A DNA stretch of 64,000 nt from an uncultured Fodinibius sp. (lineage in GTDB: Bacteria > Bacteroidota > Rhodothermia > Balneolales > Balneolaceae), in NCBI GenBank assembly GCA_913057775.1, contig CAJXOG010000007.1:1-64000 (forward strand), written 5' to 3'. Position 1 is the first letter of the stretch; each line of letters begins with the position of its first letter. Below are positions 48,187 through 49,796 of the stretch, piece by piece. Under the pieces are notes generated by a model. The model saw only the letters and a list, made by a program, of their open reading frames with translations, searched no databases and was not told where the DNA came from. Position numbers and translations under genes: made by a program.

Positions 48187-48930
48187 CTAAAACAGTAGGG
48201 CTGATTTTACCATAAAAGCAATTGCCATAGCCAAAAGTGCCGAAAGCAGGGTTCCAATCAAAACATATTCGGCAAAAGTGCGGCTTTCGAAATCCTTGAA
48301 TCGCGTAACACCTTTGGCAGCTAAAATAAATCCTATCGCCGCAAATTGATTTAGGAGGACAAACAGAAATACAAAAATACGCTCGAGCAATCCAATAATT
48401 CTTCCTGTGTTATATTCTTTTTGATCGACCTCTTTTGTTTTGCCTAATGATTTTAACCCCACCAACTTCAACACATATCGCAATATGATATTGACTTCAT
48501 TCAACACCATCAAAAGGCCAAAAATAAATAGGTGAACAATGCCTACCAGACCATCCGTTATCACAATATCAGGCAAAAAGACGTCATTAATGCCAGCTAA
48601 AACATTGGCTGCTAATTCATTCGTTGATAACTCAAATAAGGGACTACATAAAACAGCTACTACAATTATATGCAATAGCAGCACCAGCATGCGGTTTCGG
48701 TTTAATCTTTTTTTCTGCTTTTCCAACAACCACACTAAGGCCGGATGACCAATCAAATAGAATGTTAGTAATATCCAGCTTAGGCTTACTGATAAAAAAG
48801 GCAAACCCAATAGCGGGATGATCGTCATCACCCACAGATCCGATCGATTTACTCCCTTGTCCCTTGAAATAAGGCGCAGCCGAGACAGCAGAATTAGATT
48901 CAGGATCCCCAAAAATATGGTGTAGTTCAT
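48187..48930 (-). CDS. DUF3307-type membrane protein, partner of SatD-family gene
   Basis: The 247-residue protein has about seven hydrophobic segments. After the first helix there is a LRLISRDKGVNRSDLW cytoplasmic turn, and the C-terminal half has GRIIGLLERIFVFLFVLLNQ and RFKDFESRTFAEYVLIGTLLSAL. That C-terminal pattern is what I recall from DUF3307 proteins. No function is established for the family. It starts 4 bases after the SatD-family stop, so the two are almost certainly co-translated. It could be a membrane effector or transporter gated by its soluble partner; that is inference. Confidence 0.78.
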   Translation of the reverse strand: MNYTIFLGILNLILLSRLRLISRDKGVNRSDLWVMTIIPLLGLPFLSVSLSWILLTFYLIGHPALVWLLEKQKKRLNRNRMLVLLLHIIVVAVLCSPLFELSTNELAANVLAGINDVFLPDIVITDGLVGIVHLFIFGLLMVLNEVNIILRYVLKLVGLKSLGKTKEVDQKEYNTGRIIGLLERIFVFLFVLLNQFAAIGFILAAKGVTRFKDFESRTFAEYVLIGTLLSALLAMAIAFMVKSALLF

Positions 48931-48934
48931 TTTA

Positions 48935-49576
48935 TTATATTAACTTTTGATTTATTACTTCCGCAATATTATCACTTAATTCGCCCACAACATCCAGCAT
49001 GCCGGCATCTTTATTTTTGTAAAAAGCCGGTTTTGAAATATCAAGGGACTCTGAAATCTCCTTATAGTCGTATCCTTCTTTCATCATATGTAAGATGATC
49101 AAACGCCTCTTGTTCCACCCTCTCATTTCTCCCGATAAAAGTTGCAAGCTGTTATTAATGATTCTCAGTTCGGGCGAATTATCATCTTTAAATCCAATAT
49201 TAAATAGATACCCGTTTTCTTTGAGCAGTTCTATCCCACGCCGAGCTTGGTGAAAGGCCGGACCATCCATCCCAATAGCTTGCTCAGTATTGATGGGCGT
49301 ATCTATGTCTCCTACAGCCAGCGAAAACCGTACGCCTATCGGATGTATCGCAGACATGATTTTTAGCATCTGTACAAAAACAGCATCGGCCCTGTCAAAA
49401 ACTGCCTGGAATTCATCCCCAAGTGTAATGGTATAGGGTGATACAATGCCCTTCGCGTACTCTGCGTTAATAGTTTTCAACTCATCCGATAATATCTCTT
49501 GCAAGGCCTCCCTATCCCTATTTTGAACCGACTTAGAATCTTCTATATCACCAATTAATACCAGTAGCTTTTCCAT
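48935..49576 (-). CDS. SatD-family protein, cyclase-like fold with C-terminal helix-turn-helix
   Basis: The 213-residue soluble protein has two parts. Residues 1-125 resemble a class III nucleotide cyclase palm: strand 1 LLVLIGDIEDSK with Asp10, a TLGDEFQAVF hairpin with Asp54, GVRFSLAVGDID, and MDGPAFHQARRGI, in the same order as in adenylate cyclases (DIVGF, GD, VRIGIHTG, GxxVNxAaR). Residues 150-195 contain a helix-turn-helix (YKEISESLDISKPAFYK). SatD was named from the Streptococcus mutans sat operon; its reaction is not established. It is the first gene of a two-gene module with a DUF3307 membrane protein and has an inverted repeat upstream. Catalytic activity is a prediction. Confidence 0.8.
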   Translation of the reverse strand: MEKLLVLIGDIEDSKSVQNRDREALQEILSDELKTINAEYAKGIVSPYTITLGDEFQAVFDRADAVFVQMLKIMSAIHPIGVRFSLAVGDIDTPINTEQAIGMDGPAFHQARRGIELLKENGYLFNIGFKDDNSPELRIINNSLQLLSGEMRGWNKRRLIILHMMKEGYDYKEISESLDISKPAFYKNKDAGMLDVVGELSDNIAEVINQKLI

Positions 49577-49608
49577 ACGATGTTCTGTTTTTCTTTATAT
49601 ATAACCAA

Positions 49609-49639
49609 ATAAGTTAAAAATATCAATATTTAACCTTAT
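49609..49639. promoter_or_regulatory. Operator-like inverted repeat upstream of the SatD module
   Basis: The arms ATAAGTTAAA and TTTAACCTTAT form an almost complete inverted repeat (one bulged base) with a 10-base spacer, 33 bases before the satD-type start. The position fits a promoter-overlapping operator. The SatD-type protein itself carries a helix-turn-helix and could be the regulator. The arms are AT-rich, so chance cannot be excluded. Confidence 0.45.
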
Positions 49640-49796
49640 TAGTTTAATAATATGGTTTTAGCCCATTATAGTTAAAAGAGAAGAATCGCAATTAATTTTA
49701 TTTATCAGCGAAATTCTTATTTGTACAAAATGGTTGCTATTTTATGTTCGCTAAAATACACGGTGGCAAGTCAAACCAGAGATTAATAAATATAAC

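Follow-up and report, generated by a model that had tools for sequence, protein, structure and literature searches.

Among the described systems that come closest to the locus analysed here are Pycsar and Panoptes. Pycsar (PycC with PycTM or PycTIR; PMC11224242) consists of two genes, which encode a protein of the class III cyclase fold and a membrane protein, and Panoptes (OptSE; PMC12657218) is a two-gene operon for a small palm-fold synthase and a membrane effector. Further points of reference are the class III adenylyl and guanylyl cyclases and the family DUF3307 (PF11750). The literature that was searched describes no function for SatD (PF16264), and nothing in it concerns a cyclase fold, a metal site, an operator array or a near-obligate partner of this protein.

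The locus lies in the window, that is, the whole stretch of 64,000 nucleotides that was analysed, from an uncultured Fodinibius sp. Two genes were found on the minus strand, satD first and the gene of a membrane protein 4 bp downstream, where a preceding sequence-only reading had placed them (Table 1). SatD was 83% identical to the proteins of the Aliifodinibius/Fodinibius contigs L001 and L002, the nearest named relatives (Balneolota). We interpret the pair as a switch of the nucleotide type that regulates itself and has its output at the membrane, and consider this reading correct with a probability of roughly 0.6.

Table 1. Features of the satD locus, with positions counted from the first letter of the window
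Feature	Position	Strand	Length or sequence	Remarks
satD	48935..49576	-	213 aa	PF16264 match, AlphaFold2 model, fold matches, homologue alignment
SatD class III nucleotide-cyclase-like domain			residues ~1-135	metal Asp D10, D54
SatD helix-turn-helix			residues ~150-212	
Membrane partner gene	48187..48930	-	247 aa	about 7 TM helices
Partner N-terminal region			~5 TM	matches no known family
Partner conserved C-terminal core	48240..48530	-	residues ~134-230	alignment and BLASTP
Palindrome 3 (closest to satD)	49600..49618	.	TATAACCAAATAAGTTAAA	operator-like
Palindrome 2	49629..49647	.	TTTAACCTTATTAGTTTAA	operator-like; 29 bp from palindrome 3
Palindrome 1 (imperfect)	49657..49676	.	TTTAGCCCATTATAGTTAAA	~28-29 bp from palindrome 2; kept in genus orthologues

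SatD is a clear member of PF16264 (3.6e-32, 112.1 bits vs. a gathering cut-off of 29), and the Pfam scan also returned weak matches to helix-turn-helix (HTH) families at its C-terminus. The AlphaFold2 model, built from a 45-sequence alignment, had a mean pLDDT of 96.3 and followed the order strand-helix-strand-strand-helix-strand-helix-strand, after which a helical linker leads to an HTH region of four helices at residues ~156-212, in agreement with the HTH that had been proposed for this end of the protein. The landmarks named in the sequence-only reading were also real in both the sequence and the model: D10 closes strand 4-11, D54 of the GDEF hairpin sits between strands 44-51 and 55-60, and the motifs RFSLAVGDID and GPAFHQARR are present. 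When the model was compared with the PDB by Foldseek, the best 50 matches (E ≤ 1e-3) were all class III cyclases, with a best E-value of 1.7e-5 and a TM-score to the target of up to 0.55; among them were Rv1900c, Ma1120, light-regulated cyclases, the Burkholderia cUMP synthase of Pycsar (7r65), and the Anabaena uridylate cyclase (8jsz), and none was an mCpol or Cas10 structure. The SatD sequence by itself gave no match in the PDB; the sequence profile alone reached the cyclases 1ybt/1ybu, 3mr7, and Ma1120, within residues 3-94. The hhalign comparison with ordinary cyclases of related genomes gave a low to modest score, and D10, GDEF, and RFSLAVGD were aligned with their counterparts. Since the best 50 structural matches were all class III cyclases and the profile also reached cyclases, the earlier proposal of a class III nucleotide cyclase fold was right, and this fold is predicted with high confidence for the N-domain.

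Conservation was assessed in a sample of about 136 homologues, drawn from haloarchaea and from a number of bacterial phyla. D10 was found in all 134 homologues with a residue at this position and D54 in 136 of 136; these were the sole strictly invariant residues, with S14 (133/134) and Q57 (130/136) near-invariant. Disruption of the metal site in most homologues would have spoken against the earlier proposal, and the opposite was observed: the putative metal-nucleotide site is strongly conserved in the family. The residues that complete catalysis in ordinary cyclases, among them an Asn and an Arg in the helix that follows GxxVNxAxR, presented another picture. With “GDTVNLAARL” of ordinary cyclases aligned by eye to “GPAFHQARRG” of SatD, the position of the transition-state Asn (109) was occupied by H, T, I, V, W, or Y and never by Asn in the approximately 136 sequences, and that of the transition-state Arg (113) held R in 42 of 136 (31%) and E or D in about 52. 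The base-selecting Lys of adenylyl cyclases corresponded to a hydrophobic column (I50). Ordinary cyclase chemistry is thus not supported by the alignment, and the making of a nucleotide, which the sequence-only reading had put forward beside sensing, is a hypothetical role. With no Asn in this sample and the Arg in just 42 of the 136 sequences, the domain could serve as a sensor that does not catalyse. One alternative builds on this loss of the catalytic dyad: SatD would be a housekeeping stress regulator that senses the nucleotide or Mg2+ state and represses or induces a membrane transporter or channel. The name of the Streptococcus sat (secretion and acid tolerance) operon suggests such a role; however, two metal carboxylates invariant in 136 diverse sequences exceed the needs of a degenerate sensor. 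We regard this alternative as less likely than not, and return to it below.

The second protein had been described as a seven-helix membrane protein of the DUF3307 type. Simple hydropathy gave six transmembrane helices and the AlphaFold2 model (all-helical, pLDDT 91.7) contained nine helices, and seven transmembrane helices are plausible. PF11750 gave no match to the partner even at E = 10 and was absent from the whole genome (G000), and a plain DUF3307 protein was therefore rejected. In a BLASTP comparison with a DUF3307 protein, the common region comprised residues ~134-230 alone, with 39% identity over 100 positions (E = 3e-19). Because only this C-terminal core is held in common, the designation “DUF3307-type” is true of the last part of the partner and not of the remainder. 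The core carries the landmarks GRIIGLLER...AAKGVTRF...AEYVLIGTLLS, with G180, E183, K206, and G226 invariant in a 46-sequence alignment, and consists of two helices that are also common to DUF3307 proteins and to stand-alone partners of ~110 aa. Judged by these alignments, the two-helix core is the constant part across SatD partners. Three partner architectures were distinguished: an unfamiliar part of ~5 TM followed by the core, which occurs in this window, in Balneolota, in some gammaproteobacteria, and in some Actinomycetota; PF11750 followed by the core (~235 aa); and the core alone (~105-140 aa). A fold search of the partner model against the PDB gave no meaningful match. In the DUF3307 partners of loci L112, L113, and L114 (332-356 aa), an additional soluble-looking stretch of ~80-100 aa separates the DUF3307 part from the core.

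The pairing of the two genes is near-obligate. Among the 107 non-redundant SatD loci of all collections, 100 have a partner, and many of the gene pairs overlap by 4 bp. In 297 genomes of the phylum-level group of the window, the Pfam models identified 75 SatD and 78 DUF3307 genes, and 37 of the latter had SatD as the immediate same-strand neighbour, always in the order SatD then DUF3307. Our own profiles revealed a diverged upstream SatD at 11 more DUF3307 genes and then at 25 of a further 29, which brought the number of DUF3307 genes with SatD directly upstream to 73 of 78; four lacked it (L199, L201, L214, and L224), and one more was at a contig edge. Its absence outside this lineage would have spoken against the sequence-only reading; the pairing with a membrane protein was instead observed across phyla, with paired loci in Bacteroidota/Balneolota, gamma- and alphaproteobacteria (Pseudomonadota), Actinomycetota, and on haloarchaeal plasmids. 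By the Pfam model, SatD occurred in 67 of 297 genomes of the window group, 5 of 299 of Pseudomonadota, and 17 of 247 of Actinomycetota, where the counts include the starting genome of each draw and one of the 17 is the false match L105. The latter was rejected as SatD, having been matched through HTH repeats.

Several genes depart from the paired arrangement. Partnerless SatD genes were found in actinobacteria (L089, L091, L092, L093, and L104); in three of these (L089, L091, and L093), from small genomes of 1.0-1.4 Mb, satD has no significant operator array and adjoins fumarate hydratase-like genes. In Sanguibacter (L007), the partner frame beside satD seems to be interrupted, and the satD frame is without the first strand, which carries D10. 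In two related genomes (L199 and L201), a DUF3307-plus-core gene without SatD is located downstream of a ThiF/MoeB-like gene. The Acinetobacter phage SH-Ab 15599 (L115:2938-3267) carries a gene for a 109-aa DUF3307-type domain with neither the core nor SatD, and a similar DUF3307-type protein of 134 aa is present in a Ralstonia jumbo phage (PMC8504454). Such a phage protein could act as a decoy or antagonist.

The promoter of satD showed a feature absent from the sequence-only reading. The 220 bp upstream of the gene contain three imperfect palindromes of the type TTTAACY-N5-RGTTAAA with a pitch of ~29 bp, and this array is kept in the genus orthologues. In other lineages, the same design with a different sequence precedes satD, as exemplified by a core-only type locus (GTTTCATTTTTATTGAAAC), a DUF3307 type locus (TATCGGCTAATTAGCCGATA), an Enterobacter plasmid (TCAACCAAAATGGTTGA), and a haloarchaeon (TTCGCCATTATCGGCGAA). 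The score of the promoter exceeded that of all 40 dinucleotide shuffles at 74 of 107 satD genes vs. 15 of 357 control genes, with a statistic that was devised after the window promoter had been seen, loci that are partly related, and start codons that are approximate. Five of the 15 scoring controls (L158, L160, L161, L162, and L171) were divergent satD neighbours on the same intergenic array. When any spacing from 18 to 74 bp was allowed, the best value was 28 bp (42 loci) or 29 bp (33 loci) in 75 of the 84 satD promoters scoring at least 20, whereas in control promoters it was scattered. The tandem pattern of the window type occurred once in G000 and also in seven other genomes of the genus, always and only at satD, and the reversed pattern had no match. 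Two genus members without a window-type SatD (G854 and G855) had no window-type array.

SatD is the sole HTH protein of the module, and autoregulation is therefore the simplest reading of the array. Given the arrays, the soluble SatD is very probably also a DNA-binding autoregulator of its own operon. The similarity of operators tracked the identity of the HTH beyond that of the N-domain (partial rank correlation 0.21 vs. 0.12; 0 of 500 permutations in a Mantel test), and the correlation was weak (0.08) for pairs with N-domain identity below 0.35. Examples of such correspondence are VYKN helices with AACC..GGTT and QIWKRR with GTTTCAT..TGAAAC. Operators at its own promoter only would also fit the housekeeping regulator described above. 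Tandem operators are common in autoregulated toxin-antitoxin operons, and their presence before satD, together with an HTH gene in first position, the tight overlap of the genes (-4 in many loci), and carriage on small plasmids, is consistent with an addiction module of a toxic membrane protein and SatD, which would neutralise this toxin and repress the operon. Solo SatD genes exist, however, the chromosomal site is stable in the genus, and antitoxins do not usually have an invariant metal site. We consider an addiction module the least probable of the explanations presented here.

The genomic surroundings bear on the function of the module. SatD was found in 12 of 12 genomes of the genus, and in the five that were compared the pair is chromosomal and syntenic beside UPF0182, PAS histidine kinase, thrS-like, and infC-like genes. 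Vertical, syntenic inheritance in Fodinibius among housekeeping neighbours speaks for the stress regulator; the patchy spread in Pseudomonadota and Actinomycetota given above and the carriage as small-plasmid cargo speak against it. The sequence-only reading had also raised a defence role, and such a role for the module is possible: three SatD loci adjoin Pycsar genes, but most chromosomal loci, this window included, stand among housekeeping genes. Here SatD would be a true non-canonical cyclase or nucleotidyltransferase, whose product activates or, as in Panoptes, restrains the membrane partner, and the partner would damage the membrane on infection. The architecture resembles PycC with PycTM, and the fold matches 7r65 and 8jsz point in the same direction. 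On a Sphingomonas plasmid (L109), the neighbours of the pair include genes for a PF00211 cyclase, PycTM, and a TIR protein, and on an actinobacterial chromosome (G671; L274, G671:C7:145918-149811) a Pycsar-like operon of a cyclase, a middle gene, and PycTM is convergent with a SatD/core-only pair near an integrase-like gene; in both, the Pycsar-like operon is complete and abuts the module. In addition, the SatD-DUF3307 pair is the main non-replication cargo of Klebsiella and E. coli plasmids of 3.8-4.4 kb (pEC34A type; L114, L111, and others), and on pAt it is near DUF4365 and HEPN-nucleotidyltransferase genes. A DNA comparison of the enterobacterial plasmid modules with 5,426 complete E. coli genomes gave no match. 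On the L111 plasmid, the annotated start of SatD appears to be too far downstream.

Against a role in anti-phage defence stand the absence of the catalytic Asn and the occurrence in all 12 genus genomes, syntenic by UPF0182, thrS, and infC where checked. The PADLOC scan of the two window proteins was empty, and PADLOC has no model for either. At the chromosomal loci, generic helicases together with an RmuC-like protein made up most of the PADLOC excess over the control set, and a defence island was therefore rejected there. Viral contigs, scanned four times with single proteins, yielded no relative. Taken together, an anti-phage system of this kind appears rather unlikely.

The third locus beside Pycsar genes belongs to the genus of the window (G271; L138:8950-11066, which is G271:C5 and also L026). 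Its satD is intact; a frameshift and an in-frame stop disrupt the native partner, no operator array is left, and a PycTM gene (PF18967, 3.5e-17) is located 14 bp upstream of satD in the same direction. No PF00211 cyclase was found on this contig, and a separate Pycsar-like cyclase/PycTM pair is present on contig C16 of the same genome. This is what the replacement of an effector would look like, in one anecdotal locus, and it counts in favour of defence. It also fits a narrower form of our interpretation, in which SatD would combine enzyme and repressor in one bifunctional protein: as a non-canonical two-metal enzyme of the class III cyclase fold it would make a nucleotide signal for the partner and, through its HTH, regulate the operon on the array of 28-29 bp, and the partner would be an effector exchangeable with PycTM of Pycsar. 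We hold this narrower form to be unlikely, a shade more so than anti-phage defence; if true, it would represent a widespread and unrecognised nucleotide signalling system of bacteria and haloarchaea.

We suggest the following course of events for the self-regulating switch. SatD would bind the operator array through its own HTH, probably as cooperatively bound dimers, and control its own operon only; these steps are strongly indicated by the arrays. The cyclase-like domain may bind, and perhaps convert, a metal-nucleoside triphosphate, and the nucleotide state of SatD may set its DNA binding. The same state, directly or via a small nucleotide product, may set the activity of the membrane partner, which would act on the cell membrane. 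Candidate triggers are envelope stress, acid stress, or phage. Should nucleotide signalling be true, the two genes would join an enzyme-type domain, transcription control, and a membrane output in one system across bacteria and archaea. SatD and DUF3307, both listed as families of unknown function, form one module, and its fold, invariant metal site, partner core, and promoter ruler all point to direct assays, for which the small enterobacterial plasmids carrying the module are convenient.

Comparison with the known systems revealed likenesses and differences in each case. The module shares its two-gene layout, class III cyclase fold, and membrane protein with Pycsar; unlike PycC, SatD is not a PF00211 protein, lacks the catalytic Asn, and has an HTH and operators, and the partner is not PycTM (neither PF00211 nor PF18967 matched the window proteins, and PF18967 was absent from G000). 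Panoptes is similar in the operon of a small palm-fold protein and a membrane effector, but OptS is an mCpol domain, and the S-2TM-beta effector OptE has a soluble beta-barrel, whereas the all-helical model of the SatD partner has none. Because it differs in the tested features, the module was filed under neither of these systems. The class III adenylyl and guanylyl cyclases, such as Rv1900c and Ma1120, are like SatD in the fold and in both metal aspartates and differ in that SatD has no conserved Asn, an Arg in 31% of sequences, a hydrophobic residue at the Lys position, and a fused HTH. Finally, compared with DUF3307, the partner in the window has a different N-terminal part of ~5 TM and no PF11750 domain, and other partners of ~110 aa have almost no N-terminal part; the DUF3307 proteins share with it the C-terminal core with the invariant G, E, K, and G, and are encoded directly downstream of SatD-family genes.
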